A stretch of DNA of 64,000 bases, from assembly GCF_023015765.1 (NCBI RefSeq), contig NZ_JALKAL010000004.1:186001-250000 (forward strand). The letters are read 5' to 3'. Source of the DNA: Ornithinimicrobium sp. F0845. Its GTDB lineage: Bacteria > Actinomycetota > Actinomycetes > Actinomycetales > Dermatophilaceae. Positions 18,823 through 37,090 of the stretch are shown here, one piece after another. Under the pieces are notes generated by a model. It searched no databases. It was not told where the DNA came from and saw only the letters and a program-made list of their open reading frames with translations. Position 1 is the stretch's first letter. Each line of letters begins with the position of its first letter. Position numbers and translations under genes: made by a program.

Positions 18823-18864
18823 CTCCCGCCGAGACACCGCTGTGCCTCTGCGAGAATCGGGGCC

Positions 18865-20280
18865 ATGGCCTCCCTCGCCGACCTCACTCCCCCGATCGCC
18901 CTCGGCTCCCTGGACGGCCGCTACCGCAGGGCCGTCGCGCCGCTCGTCGACCACCTCTCCGAGCCCGCGCTCAACCGCACCCGTCTGCATGTCGAGATCG
19001 AGTGGCTCATCCACCTGACGTCCCACGGCGTGGTGCCCGGCGCCGGGACCCTGTCGGAGTCCGAGGCCGCCAGCCTGCGCGGCCTGGTCGACGAGTTCGA
19101 CAGGACGGCCATCGATGAGCTGGCCGAGATCGAGGCCGAGACGGTCCACGACGTCAAGGCGATCGAGTACTACCTCAAGGACCAGCTCAGCCACCGCCTC
19201 GACAACCGGGCCGACCTGGCCGAGCTGGTGCACTTCGCCTGCACCTCCGAGGACATCAACAACCTGTCCTACGCCCTCATGGTCCAGGGCGCGGTCCAGC
19301 AGGTCTGGCTCCCCCGCGCCACCCAGCTCGTCGAGCAGGTGAGCGGCATGGCTCGCGAGCTGGCCGACATACCGCTGCTGGCGCACACCCACGGCCAGCC
19401 GGCCACCCCCACCACGATGGGCAAGGAGCTGGCGGTGCTGGCGTGGCGCCTCTCGCGCCAGCTGCGGCACATCGCGGGAGCGGAGTATCTCGGCAAGCTC
19501 AACGGTGCGACCGGCACCTACGGCGCCCACCTGGCCGCGGTGCCCGGCGCCGACTGGCAGGTGATCAGCAGGGAGTTCGTCACCGGGCTGGGTCTGACCT
19601 GGAACCCGCTGACCACCCAGATCGAGAGCCACGACTGGCAGGCCGAGGTCTATGCCGACCTCGCGCGGTTCAACCGGGTGCTGCACAACCTCTGCACGGA
19701 TGTCTGGTCCTACATCTCGCTGGGCTACTTCGCGCAGGTGCGGGGGCAGGGCACGGTCGGGTCCTCGACGATGCCGCACAAGGTCAACCCGATCCGCTTC
19801 GAGAACGCCGAGGCCAACCTCGAGGTGTCCAACGCGCTGCTCGACGTGCTCGCCTCGACGCTGGTGACCTCGCGGCTGCAGCGCGACCTGACCGACTCCT
19901 CGATGCAGCGCAACATCGGCACCGCGCTGGGTCACTCGCTGCTGGCGCTGGACAACGTCTCCCGCGGGCTCGCCGGGCTGGACGCCGCCCCGGAGCGGAT
20001 GGCCGCCGACCTCGACGCCAACTGGGAGGTGCTGGCCGAGCCGATCCAGTCCGCGATGCGCGCGCTGGCCGCCGCCGGTCACCCGGGCATGGACAACCCG
20101 TACGAGCGGCTCAAGGAGCTGACCCGTGGCCGCCGGATCGGGCAGGCCGAGCTGGTGGAGTTCGTCAAGGGGCTGGGTCTGCCGGCCGAGGTCGAGGAGC
20201 GTCTGGCAGCCCTCACCCCCGCGCAGTATGTCGGGCTCGCACCCGACCTGGTCGCTCACCTCTCCCCCCAAGAAATTTAG
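18865..20280 (+). CDS. purB: adenylosuccinate lyase
   Basis: Cleaves SAICAR and adenylosuccinate to fumarate plus AICAR or AMP in purine synthesis. 471 residues, in the E. coli-like PurB subgroup. It has CTSEDINNLSYALM, the catalytic His block LLAHTHGQPATPTTMGKE, and the fumarase-superfamily signature SSTMPHKVNPIRFENAE near residue 297, with the catalytic Ser loop. An imperfect -10 GAGAAT lies 7 nt before the ATG. The 3' end (AAGAAATTTAG) is the first of three drifting repeat copies that follow. Confidence 0.97.
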   Translation: MASLADLTPPIALGSLDGRYRRAVAPLVDHLSEPALNRTRLHVEIEWLIHLTSHGVVPGAGTLSESEAASLRGLVDEFDRTAIDELAEIEAETVHDVKAIEYYLKDQLSHRLDNRADLAELVHFACTSEDINNLSYALMVQGAVQQVWLPRATQLVEQVSGMARELADIPLLAHTHGQPATPTTMGKELAVLAWRLSRQLRHIAGAEYLGKLNGATGTYGAHLAAVPGADWQVISREFVTGLGLTWNPLTTQIESHDWQAEVYADLARFNRVLHNLCTDVWSYISLGYFAQVRGQGTVGSSTMPHKVNPIRFENAEANLEVSNALLDVLASTLVTSRLQRDLTDSSMQRNIGTALGHSLLALDNVSRGLAGLDAAPERMAADLDANWEVLAEPIQSAMRALAAAGHPGMDNPYERLKELTRGRRIGQAELVEFVKGLGLPAEVEERLAALTPAQYVGLAPDLVAHLSPQEI

Positions 20281-30685: not shown

Positions 30686-31405
30686 ATGAGCACGCACATC
30701 GCCGCCGAGGCCGGGCAGGTCGCCCCACGCATCCTCCTGCCAGGAGACCCGCTGCGGGCCAGGTGGATCGCCGAGAACTTCCTCGACGGCGCCGAGTGCT
30801 ACAACGAGGTCCGCGGGATGCTCGGGTTCACCGGCACCTACCGCGGCGAGCGCGTGTCGGTGCAGGGCACCGGAATGGGGCAGCCGTCGCTCTCCATCTA
30901 TGTCAACGAGCTGATCCGGGAGTATGCCGTGCAGCAGCTGGTCCGCGTCGGCAGCTGCGGGGCACTCACCGAGCGTCTCGCGATGCGCGATGTCGTGATC
31001 GCCCAGGCCGCCGCCACCGACTCCGCTATGAACAGCCACCGTTTCGAGGGCTTCCACTACCCCGCGACGGCCGACTTCACGCTCCTGCGCCGTGCGGTGG
31101 AGGCGGCCGAGGCCGCTGGTAGCACGCACCTGGTCGGGTCGATCTTCAGCTCGGACAGCTTCTATCACGACCGCACGGACCTCACTGACCGACTGGTGGA
31201 GTTCGGCGTGCTGGCCGTGGAGATGGAGGCGGCCGAGCTCTACACCCTCGCCGCCAGGCACGACCGTGCGGCGCTGGCGGTCTGCACGGTCTCGGACCAT
31301 CTCGTCACCGGCGCGATGACGACCTCCCAGGAGCGGGAGCAGACCTTCGGCGACATGGTGACCATCGCGCTCGACGCCATGCTCGCCACCCCGCTGCGGA
31401 GCTGA
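30686..31405 (+). CDS. deoD: purine-nucleoside phosphorylase, DeoD (hexameric) type
   Basis: Phosphorolysis of purine (deoxy)nucleosides to base plus ribose-1-phosphate for salvage. 239 residues, the usual length. It has LPGDPLRARWIAENFL at the N-terminus (phosphate loop Gly-Asp-Pro), GTGMGQPSLSIYVNEL, VRVGSCGAL near residue 90, and the ribose-site VLAVEMEAAELYTLAA with the Met-Glu pair; the catalytic Asp lies in CTVSDHLVTG near residue 204. It is the only salvage gene here and stands alone with its own leaderless promoter. Confidence 0.95.
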   Translation: MSTHIAAEAGQVAPRILLPGDPLRARWIAENFLDGAECYNEVRGMLGFTGTYRGERVSVQGTGMGQPSLSIYVNELIREYAVQQLVRVGSCGALTERLAMRDVVIAQAAATDSAMNSHRFEGFHYPATADFTLLRRAVEAAEAAGSTHLVGSIFSSDSFYHDRTDLTDRLVEFGVLAVEMEAAELYTLAARHDRAALAVCTVSDHLVTGAMTTSQEREQTFGDMVTIALDAMLATPLRS

Positions 31406-31511: not shown

Positions 31512-32156
31512 ATGAGCACCGGAGGAATGAGGCCGACGCGCGTCCGCAGCGTGCTGCCGGCGCTGCAGGGCCGCGGCGTGCTGCTGGCCGCCCCGGTCGA
31601 CGCCGAACGGATCCGTCGCACCCTGGAGGCCGCGGGTTTCGCCGTCGCGGAGGCCGACCTGGGGGGTCTGCCGGAGGAGAGTCCACAGCGTCCGGACGAC
31701 ATGCTCGACGCCGACGGCCGCCCCACCTCGCTGCGCACCGCCCAGGACGCAGTCGCGCAGGCGTTGCGGCTGCCCGAGGCTGCAGGTCGCAATCTCGATG
31801 CTCTGGTGGACTCCCTCCGCGACCTGGCCTACTGGTGGCCCGACGACCGGGCCGTGGCGCTCCTGCTGCACGGTGCCGAGACCCTGGTCGAGTCCGATCT
31901 CCCGGGATGGCACGAGCTGACCGAGATCCTCAGTGCGGCGAGCTCCGAGCTCTGGCAGGACGGCGGTGAGGGCGACCGGGCGTTCGAGACGGTGGCGTTC
32001 GTGCACCGTCACGGGGTCCCCGTCCTCGCCGGGGACGAGGTCTCCGCGGACGAGCTGACCGGAGGCGAGATCTCCGAGGACGAGCTGACCGGGGACGAGG
32101 TCTCCGGGGACCAGCTGACCGAGGACGAAGCGTCCGGGGACGGGTGGTCGTCATGA
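31512..32156 (+). CDS. barstar-family ribonuclease inhibitor with acidic repeat tail
   Basis: 214 residues. Residues about 28-165 match the barstar fold pattern: AAPVDAERIRRTLEAAGF, then NLDALVDSLRDLAYWWPDD (barstar's NLDALWD helix), VALLLHGAETLVE and LTEILSAASSELWQD. Barstar blocks the active site of barnase/RNase Sa-type guanyl ribonucleases in the cytoplasm. The next gene encodes exactly such an enzyme and starts inside this gene's stop (ATGA), so the inhibitor is made first. A 41-residue Asp/Glu-rich tail (174-214) made of ten-residue units follows; it is not part of barstar. Confidence 0.8.
   Translation: MSTGGMRPTRVRSVLPALQGRGVLLAAPVDAERIRRTLEAAGFAVAEADLGGLPEESPQRPDDMLDADGRPTSLRTAQDAVAQALRLPEAAGRNLDALVDSLRDLAYWWPDDRAVALLLHGAETLVESDLPGWHELTEILSAASSELWQDGGEGDRAFETVAFVHRHGVPVLAGDEVSADELTGGEISEDELTGDEVSGDQLTEDEASGDGWSS
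32031..32150 (+). repeat. 30-bp in-frame repeat in the barstar-like gene tail
   Basis: Four 30-bp units (32031, 32061, 32091, 32121) encode GDEVSADELT, GGEISEDELT, GDEVSGDQLT and EDEASGDGWS. The drift is mostly at third bases and single residues, so the peptide pattern is kept. Confidence 0.9.
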
Positions 32157-32761
32157 GCCGCTCACGCCTGACCGCGCTCGCCGCGGCCGCGGTGCTGGTG
32201 CTGTCGGGGTGCGGCATGGCCGACGAGCTCAGCGGTCCGTCACCGGTCTCCCGCCCGAGCACGTCCGCCCCCTCCAGCGACGGTGCCCCGGGCGATCTGC
32301 TGCCCACTGACACCGGGCCGGAGTCCAGCGAGTCCGAACCCTCCGAACCCGAGCCCAACGAACCCGAGCAGCCCGAGCCCACAGAGCCCGAGCCCACCGA
32401 GCCCACCGAGCCACAGCCTTCGACGTCGGACAGGGAGCTGGGCGCACCCGGCATACCGGCGTGTGACGTCCTCGACCTGCCCGCCACGACCCTGGAGGTG
32501 ATCGAGGACATCGAGGCCGGTGGGCCCTACGATTACCCGCGCAACGACGGCGTCCGGTTCCAGAACCGCGAGGGGATCCTGCCGGACGAGGACCATGACT
32601 ACTACCGCGAGTTCACCGTCGAGACTCCGGGGCTGGACCATCGCGGAGCGCGCCGCATCGTGACCGGCGGGTTCGAGGAGACCGACCCCGAGCACTGGTA
32701 CTTCACCGGCGACCACTACGAGAGCTTCTGCGAGTTCGACCCTGACCTGCGTGACCCTTAG
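32153..32761 (+). CDS. lipoprotein guanyl ribonuclease of the RNase Sa (N1/T1/barnase) family
   Basis: 202 residues. A lipoprotein signal with lipobox LSGC puts the lipidated Cys at residue 20. Residues about 25-98 are a Pro/Glu/Ser-rich spacer (SEPSEPEPNEPEQPEP), and residues 101-200 match RNase Sa closely: LPATTLEVIEDI, GPYDYPRNDGVRFQNRE, YYREFTV (general base Glu153), RGARRIV (Arg164/Arg168), and TGDHYESF (catalytic His188). Cys104 and Cys193 sit at the family's disulfide positions. All catalytic residues are present, so it should be an active extracellular, membrane-tethered guanyl-specific RNase. It is translated by overlap from the barstar gene. Its role could be RNA scavenging, or killing of neighbours. 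Confidence 0.88.
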   Translation: MSRSRLTALAAAAVLVLSGCGMADELSGPSPVSRPSTSAPSSDGAPGDLLPTDTGPESSESEPSEPEPNEPEQPEPTEPEPTEPTEPQPSTSDRELGAPGIPACDVLDLPATTLEVIEDIEAGGPYDYPRNDGVRFQNREGILPDEDHDYYREFTVETPGLDHRGARRIVTGGFEETDPEHWYFTGDHYESFCEFDPDLRDP

Positions 32762-32781
32762 GACTGCGAAGATCGACAGGA

Positions 32782-32798
32782 ATACCTAGGGGGGGTAT
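32782..32798. promoter_or_regulatory. CsoR operator
   Basis: ATACCTAGGGGGGGTAT is an inverted repeat (ATACC/GGTAT) around a G-tract, the usual shape of CsoR sites. It runs into the -10 box, so bound CsoR would block polymerase. Confidence 0.7.
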
Positions 32799-32801
32799 GC
32801 T
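32796..32801 (+). promoter_or_regulatory. -10 box, leaderless start of csoR
   Basis: TATGCT, 6 nt before the ATG at 32808, overlapping the right arm of the CsoR dyad. Confidence 0.55.
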
Positions 32802-36352: not shown

Positions 36353-36958
36353 TCATCGGCGGCGCCGTGGCAGGGCGGCACCCATGCCGAGCAGCCCGAC
36401 GGCCGAGGCCGCCACGGCCGTGTTGGTGAGCAACGACTCCTCGGGCACCCCATCACCTTGCCGGACCGAGTTGAACTCCACCCCGGCGACGGCGATTTCG
36501 GCCGACACGCGGCACCGGTCGGCGGCCTCCGGACTGACCTCGACGGCGCACAGCGCCCGGACCTGGTCTGCGAACCGGTCGTCGATCTCCCCGCGCGCCC
36601 ACCGCCCGAGCGGCTGACCGGTCCGCTCGGCGTAGCGCAACAGGTCATAGCCGTAGTCGTGCTGCCGACAGGCCGGCTCGAAGCGCTGGGGCAGGGTCAC
36701 GGGCGAGGAGCAGCCTCCGTCAGCACGAACCACCTGGCCATCCTGCAGGACCGGCCGATAGCCGACGACCGTGTCGAAGTCCTCCGGGACCGCTTCCAGC
36801 GCCTCCCCGGCAGTGCCCGCCGTCAGCGCACGGACCGCGACCGCCGCCGGCGTCTGCTCCTCCCCGGCCTCCGCGCCGGTGCCGGCCAGGGTGAGTCCGC
36901 CCGCTGCGGCGAGCGCGATGAGTGACAGGAGGAGTGCGTTGACGCGTCGGGAGGTCAT
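36353..36958 (-). CDS. secreted prokaryotic phospholipase A2-type protein with C-terminal anchor
   Basis: 201 residues from the ATG at 36958 (GAGG upstream); a GTG at 36979 is possible. The signal peptide is MTSRRVNALLLSLIALAAAG. The PLA2 core is at about residues 82-150: GGCSSPVTLPQRFEPAC, the catalytic RQHDYGYD (His100-Asp101), and paired cysteines (83/97, 143/154 region). It lacks a close match in the Ca-loop to eukaryotic enzymes, as usual for the streptomycete type. Unusually, it ends in a hydrophobic stretch (about 178-196) and RRRR, an anchor not typical of free secreted PLA2; there is no LPXTG. Confidence 0.8.
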   Translation of the reverse strand: MTSRRVNALLLSLIALAAAGGLTLAGTGAEAGEEQTPAAVAVRALTAGTAGEALEAVPEDFDTVVGYRPVLQDGQVVRADGGCSSPVTLPQRFEPACRQHDYGYDLLRYAERTGQPLGRWARGEIDDRFADQVRALCAVEVSPEAADRCRVSAEIAVAGVEFNSVRQGDGVPEESLLTNTAVAASAVGLLGMGAALPRRRR

Positions 36959-37090
36959 GTCCTCGACGCTAGGAATCACCTGCGCTGCAGCAGATCACCA
37001 CGAGGTGCGAATCTCATCCGCCCATCCGGGAGCGGCGCCGGACCGGGGCACCACCGGCGGGTGAGCACGACGTCACCCGCTGGTATGAGG

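Follow-up and report, generated by a model that had tools for sequence, protein, structure and literature searches.

Barnase with barstar serves as a standard model of how proteins bind one another, and older work exists on inhibitors of the streptomycete RNase Sa; to our knowledge, the purpose of such RNases is little settled. The best-described pair, from Bacillus amyloliquefaciens, combines a guanyl-type microbial RNase with an intracellular inhibitor. The locus considered here draws on the same two protein families, but differs in two respects: barnase is secreted (PMC8625414, in the portion available), whereas the present one is predicted to be a lipoprotein carried on a stalk, and here the RNase and inhibitor genes overlap. 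The RNases Sa, Sa2 and Sa3 of Streptomyces are the closest in solved structure (40-42% identity in the model match, with all four catalytic residues shared); they differ in having another disulfide and no tether, and the secreted class of Streptomyces is mostly without an adjacent barstar (60 of 66).

Two further comparisons come from comparative genomics. The available portion of Zhang et al. 2012 (PMC3482391) associates Imm-barstar specifically with barnase-like toxins and describes simple barnase-barstar pairs as widely distributed, with a suggested incipient toxin-first order. Like those simple pairs, the present genes are adjacent and stand alone; unlike them, they run inhibitor-first with an overlap, and a tether is absent from the description given in that portion of the source. 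Polymorphic toxins of the Tox-Barnase/Imm-Barstar kind likewise share both the catalytic and the immunity family, but in the present pair neither trafficking or presentation domains nor a polymorphic tip are seen. Among the open-access matches listed, judged by titles and the beginnings of abstracts, nothing concerned tethered RNase Sa-type enzymes beside barstar.

An RNase gene overlapping a barstar-family gene

The pair lies in a stretch of 64,000 nucleotides from Ornithinimicrobium sp. F0845 (hereafter the window). Re-reading of the open reading frames returned exactly the coordinates and the ATGA overlap of the preliminary description, and its central observation – a predicted surface-anchored RNase beside a barstar-like inhibitor – is confirmed (Table 1). 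A profile scan finds one PF00545 gene and two barstar genes in the genome; the second barstar-family gene (L060, G000:C59:63534-63746) has no RNase row beside it.

Table 1. Features of the RNase-inhibitor locus and its upstream neighbours (positions in the window).
Feature	Position	Strand	Details
purB homologue	18862-20262	+	about 11 kb from the pair
deoD-type purine nucleoside phosphorylase	30686-31405	+	NCBIfam PRK05819, 5.3e-104; 106-nt gap to the pair
Barstar-family inhibitor gene	31512-32156	+	214 aa; without visible signal sequence, predicted cytosolic; PF01337
Barstar core, residues 72-150	31725-31961	+	Pfam; Pro88, Asp96 and Asp100 identical in all 63 chosen relatives
Acidic tail of the inhibitor, 3.8 copies of a 30-bp repeat	32029-32142	+	low model confidence
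ATGA, RNase start overlapping barstar stop (TGA)	32153-32156	+	sequence
Predicted lipoprotein with RNase Sa-type domain	32153-32761	+	202 aa, from ATG at 32153
Signal sequence and lipobox LSGC (Cys20)	32153-32212	+	sequence
Pro/Glu/Ser-rich spacer, 78 residues (21-98)	32213-32446	+	composition; pLDDT mostly low to middling
RNase Sa-type catalytic domain (E153, R164, R168, H188, Cys104/Cys193)	32447-32758	+	profile, structure match, alignment

The RNase matches PF00545 (E 7e-20, 71.8 bits against a curated cut-off of 24) and, among PDB chains, RNase Sa2 (1py3, E 5.6e-19). The nearest solved structures are RNase Sa2, Sa and Sa3, and the predicted model superposes on RNase Sa2 with a TM-score of 0.93 of target. 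Glu153, Arg164, Arg168 and His188 stand where they had been placed from the sequence and are unchanged in 284 of 284 aligned relatives; we take their roles to be those of the Glu, the two Arg and the His in RNase Sa-type catalysis. The enzyme is predicted to be a guanyl-type RNase. Its domain is acidic (calculated pI 4.2). Across RNase domains the calculated median pI is 9.05 for the lipoprotein class (60 rows), 5.32 for helix-anchored enzymes (89) and 4.45 for secreted ones (88).

The preliminary description also equated Cys104 and Cys193 with the cysteine pair of RNase Sa, and this has to be withdrawn: the second Cys of RNase Sa sits elsewhere. C193 aligns with Ser in RNase Sa, Arg in Sa3 and Gln in Sa2, and in the secreted Streptomyces enzymes the second Cys lies further downstream. 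The RNase Sa disulfide, which joins an N-terminal Cys to a Cys of the C-terminal tail, is absent from the window enzyme and is a trait of the Sa branch, not of the whole PF00545 family. Counted at the exact alignment columns, 103 of 284 rows carry both C104 and C193 and none carries only one: such strict co-occurrence suggests that Cys104 is bonded to Cys193.

The RNase precursor starts MSRSRLTALAAAAVLVLSGC, by its letters a lipobox-type signal: n-region, h-region and lipobox Cys (MSRSRL...LSGC) are all present, by letters and by regular expression. A lipobox is found also in the four closest relatives and in 5 of 5 rows of group g4. The signal and the Pro/Glu spacer described earlier are both borne out by sequence, the spacer being 78 rather than 75 residues long, with 18 Pro and 14 Glu. 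From these features the enzyme would be lipidated and lie outside the cell.

Assignment of the inhibitor depends on Pfam (PF01337, E 9.4e-14, 51.6 bits against a curated cut-off of 23.4) and on a profile built from 63 relatives (those used out of 76 references drawn up), which matches PDB barstar chains at 8.2e-11; the single sequence, searched against PDB, matched no barstar chain. The segment holding the residues unchanged in 63 of 63 chosen barstars aligns with P...NLDALxD (NLDALWD) of barstar, which contains Asp35 and Asp39, by which barstar occludes the active site of its RNase. This sequence evidence is stronger than the predicted model (mean pLDDT 82.7): Foldseek gave no match at E 0.001, ORC and other AAA+ proteins were best (from E 0.0065), and barstar chains matched at TM 0.67-0.73 of target at ranks 14, 38 and 43. 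The inhibitor probably binds and blocks its partner RNase. Among the one in three relatives inspected for it, only L042 has a tail like its acidic repeat.

Tethering, linkage and gene order among relatives

Relatives were drawn from several samples. The host-family set comprised 186 genomes (PF00545 in 123, PF01337 in 127); 99 family RNase loci, equal to 102 of 135 match rows, were fetched, and L017 and L021 were added by eye. Named relatives were the best 80 of 549, and the Streptomyces set held 108 loci (28 + 80), part of that genus's match rows. Of 310 RNase rows, 22 repeated a gene already present and were dropped; tandem-domain and short rows were excluded from the trees (284 rows). A contig scan with a single protein as query returned no relatives; an alignment as query found them. 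N-terminal classes were assigned by simple rules (hydrophobic stretch, lipobox, A-x-A), followed by hand correction of 17 loci. An enzyme is called tethered if it has a lipobox or a membrane helix, and linked, following the family scan, if a same-strand barstar lies within 1.5 kb of the RNase row. The genus of the window pair, g1, includes Serinicoccus records and supplies 27 rows to the neighbourhood counts. The nearest named relative among the best 80 of 549 is Ornithinimicrobium cavernae (92% over the domain), its locus being the same gene as that of G107 in g1.

Same-strand barstars lie within 1.5 kb of 120 of the 135 family RNase rows, and opposite-strand ones of none: pairing is thus above chance. 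By order, 84 rows are RNase-first, 36 are barstar-first and 15 are without a Pfam barstar within that distance. Searching with the window protein revealed a barstar-like ORF in three of the 15 (G120 and two G130 fragments). The remaining 12 rows represent 10 genes, eight of them read at the N-terminus: seven have cleavable-type signals (six by classing, L017 by eye) and L107 is tethered; the other two genes are the second copy of G075, and G086. Among family barstar rows, 17 of 137 have no RNase row within 1.5 kb. At L059 (G130) an apparently broken RNase gene (two pieces, one stop) stands beside a barstar-like ORF.

Pairs of a tethered RNase Sa-type enzyme and a barstar recur in several actinobacterial groups. 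The preliminary description held that routine unlinking of homologues would count against it; the outcome favours it for tethered enzymes and goes against it for secreted ones. Tethered enzymes are linked in 91 of 92 unique family rows, the sole one with no barstar found being L107, and in 39 of 39 unique lipoprotein rows of Streptomyces; for secreted enzymes the figures are 0 of 6 (with 2 family rows unclear) and 6 of 66 (60 unlinked, with 1 Streptomyces row ambiguous). The phylum sample, which includes the window's own copy, holds 13 tethered linked, 6 secreted unlinked and 2 unclear rows. Six g14/g35 genomes could be read at both loci (G029, G031, G032, G088, G090 and, with L131 as the secreted and L021, by eye, as the tethered copy, G033): in each, barstar accompanies the tethered copy but not the secreted one. 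Two secreted-type enzymes, L083 (G031:C3) and L131 (G033:C4), have two tandem RNase Sa-type domains and no barstar nearby.

That barstar goes strictly with tethering, and never with secretion, was considered as a rule and rejected. Secreted enzymes are linked in Tsukamurella (5/5), Williamsia (4/4) and Gordonia (1/1): these 10 of 10, together with the 6 of 66 in Streptomyces, show that a pair can be linked without being tethered. For the family and Streptomyces counts, Fisher tests return small p values, but these ignore kinship. With kinship taken into account, tethering changes at least twice and linkage 14 times on the tree, and among five supported independent pairs that differ in linkage two agree with tethering, none oppose it and three are equal (p 0.5), a number of independent contrasts too small for significance. 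What stands is that tethering changes rarely, unlike the kind of anchor: among 150 tethered rows, lipobox and helix anchors have been swapped at least nine times.

Corynebacterium is linked in 37 of 46 unique rows and without barstar in 9 of 46, its N-terminal helix class being unsure. A first count, in which 46 of 80 named loci appeared to have no barstar, was inflated for the most part by too narrow a profile; with a wider one the number fell to 33, and in 23 of these a search seeded from Corynebacterium revealed barstar-like ORFs. Corynebacterium loci among L140-L212 have short barstar-like ORFs downstream of their RNases, missed by the profile from other lineages.

The preliminary description argued that inhibitor-first order with coupling protects the cytosol. 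Coupling is conserved; order is not. Barstar-first order is found within the family only in g1, g4, g5 and g32, and elsewhere in three Pseudonocardia loci and one Micrococcales bin, and order among linked rows has changed at least three times on the 284-row tree. With 84 of 120 linked family rows RNase-first, the claim that order protects the cytosol is weakened, and it is not needed, since most linked family relatives have the reverse order. An in-frame 4-nt overlap, on the other hand, is possible for 40 of the 44 barstar-first rows (a broken gene accounting for two of the rows), for all 55 RNase-first family rows that were read and for 9 of 13 rows of the phylum sample. Among Streptomyces lipoprotein rows the figure is 34 of 39, against 0 of 6 for secreted linked rows and 0 of 1 ambiguous; counts for other genera are 1 of 15 in Corynebacterium (rows matched by the first profile), 0 of 5 in Tsukamurella, 1 of 4 in Williamsia and 0 of 1 in Gordonia. 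Outside Corynebacterium, in these data, tight coupling follows the tethered class whichever gene comes first.

Cysteines divide the alignment into three kinds: C104 with C193; N-terminal Cys with tail Cys, found in the secreted Streptomyces enzymes whether unlinked (60/60) or linked (6/6); and no such pair, as in the RNase-first tethered enzymes of the family (55/55) and the Streptomyces lipoproteins (39/39). In a careful tree of 70 rows with Cys masked, the C193-type rows fall on one side (support 74/90). The secreted g14/g35 enzymes join the secreted ones of Streptomyces in the quick tree of 284 rows; a single secreted clade is not rejected by the 70-row data either (p-AU 0.5).

Neighbouring genes, selection and ancestry

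Most related pairs of the genus sit in one conserved region. A same-strand purB lies upstream, in the fetched stretch, in 23 of 27 g1 rows, 5 of 5 g4 rows and 4 of 4 g5 rows. The interval that separates the purB end from the RNase domain takes in the barstar gene. It measures 0.5-1.1 kb for 19 of these 23 g1 rows and 2.8-4.7 kb for the other four (3 loci), 0.9-1.7 kb for g4, 0.7-0.8 kb for three g5 rows and 2.6 kb for the fourth. Secreted, barstar-free enzymes of g14/g35, six of which were fetched, are likewise downstream of purB, three at 0.3 kb and three at 0.7-3.5 kb. Pfam identifies adenylosuccinate lyase in 4 of 10 immediate upstream ORFs checked. No purB was found in the fetched stretch of 124 RNase-first rows outside Corynebacterium, 46 Corynebacterium rows or 3 Pseudonocardia rows. 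Purine nucleoside phosphorylase is upstream in the window and four close relatives (of 27 g1 rows), and L039 has both genes in reach. These neighbours favour a purine link of the pair, though it may be one of position only: purB may simply be a positional neighbour, since it is missing from the other rows just named and in the window stands about 11 kb from the pair, and the phosphorylase is no more than a possible partner. No uptake genes are shown adjoining the pair.

Downstream, csoR and copper transport genes often follow the pair in relatives. A promoter-like match at 32773-32801 suggests that csoR is transcribed from a start of its own; the same scan found none before barstar.

Compared with four close relatives, the window's RNase domain has a dN/dS of about 0.05-0.2 and its barstar one of 0.22-0.33; the low enzyme values indicate that the enzyme is under purifying selection. 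As to ancestry, three Pseudonocardia RNases are nearer to that of the window than are the g1 RNases outside the window's own five-member subclade (support 88/94 for the joint clade). The Pseudonocardia barstars are among the eight nearest, and the barstar tree contains no such clade. Within 3 kb, the Pseudonocardia loci and the window match only in the two genes of the pair, apart from one short distant match. The RNase clade, in surroundings otherwise unlike, points to transfer of the pair between orders as a unit, in either direction.

Possible roles of a predicted tethered RNase

We think it somewhat probable that the pair comprises an outward-facing tethered guanyl-type RNase with a cytosolic barstar as safety catch, likely serving the breakdown of extracellular RNA. 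The RNase would cross the membrane, be lipidated at Cys20 and stay anchored to the outer side, where a flexible 78-residue stalk would carry the catalytic domain and RNA would be cut in or near the wall. The barstar-like protein would remain in the cytosol and block any enzyme folded before export, and the stop/start overlap would couple synthesis of the two proteins in cis. Products of extracellular RNA breakdown would be kept near the cell, allowing recovery of purine and phosphate. RNA scavenging, one of two uses mentioned in the preliminary description, is possible under this scheme, and is weakly favoured by the nearby purB or purine nucleoside phosphorylase.

The other use then mentioned was contact-dependent killing: the tethered RNase would enter neighbouring cells on contact, and barstar would be the immunity protein. 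In polymorphic systems, barnase-like toxins do have barstar as their immunity family (PMC3482391, in the portion available), the inhibitor evolves faster than the enzyme, and the Pseudonocardia loci look like transfer of the pair as a unit. Against this, in the 202 residues Pfam and NCBIfam place no delivery, binding, translocation, repeat or pre-toxin module above cut-off: the protein consists of signal, low-complexity spacer and RNase domain, and has no trafficking or presentation domain at its N-terminus. (Every NCBIfam match listed for it was far below cut-off; one, to a type VII secretion-associated model, scored 15 bits where 47.6 are required.) Nor is there a variable toxin tip with exchanged immunity genes, the RNase Sa-type domain being the tip in each g1, g4 and g5 locus read, and a scan with a defence library was empty. 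The domain is acidic, whereas most known cytotoxic RNases are basic according to the available part of PMC4278273; the region is conserved, dN/dS is low and there is no sign of polymorphism. A killing role is unsupported by these data and in our judgement unlikely.

It is also improbable, and we rank it low, that the enzyme is an ordinary secreted RNase, its lipid form transient and shed by proteolysis of the spacer, so that it acts freely like barnase. Linkers rich in Pro, Glu and Ser are often protease-sensitive, and by their signals the g14/g35 homologues in the same chromosomal region are freely secreted; but anchors persist in many genera while their type has been swapped repeatedly, a pattern that routine release would not readily explain. 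Lowest, and highly improbable, is a stress module of toxin-antitoxin kind in which the enzyme acts in its own cytosol under export stress or loss of barstar: the tight overlap would suit it, as would the inhibitor-first order, unlike the toxin-first order of exported toxins (PMC3482391, in the portion available), but an export signal is present, the co-occurring Cys pair suits an oxidising exterior, and most linked family relatives are RNase-first.

Returning to the tethered, barstar-guarded enzyme, the recurrence of such pairs in several actinobacterial groups makes this one look like an under-described variant of the textbook barnase-barstar system and not a one-off killing device. A broader proposal, which we put forward only tentatively and hold to be possible but short of probable, is that in several actinobacterial lineages linked RNase Sa enzymes usually take the tethered, barstar-guarded form: a long-lived machine of the envelope for harvesting extracellular RNA, purines above all, with interchangeable anchors and coupled translation, passed sometimes as a two-gene cassette between orders. 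If the tethered form is the usual one, the familiar secreted enzyme becomes the exception among linked pairs; and if most linked enzymes of these lineages are tethered, the question moves from a free secreted poison to a surface enzyme. The strict pairing of Cys104 with Cys193, like the swapping of lipobox and helix anchors, offers a clear handle for structure and evolution.

Two minor observations concern other proteins. In the window, the minus-strand ORF at 36353-36979 encodes a small protein with a sub-threshold match to prokaryotic phospholipase A2 (25.4 bits against a cut-off of 29.4). At L232 (G559) the RNase domain ends a long Pro-rich ORF, with two barstar matches downstream on the same contig; this is possibly a protein of polymorphic-toxin type.
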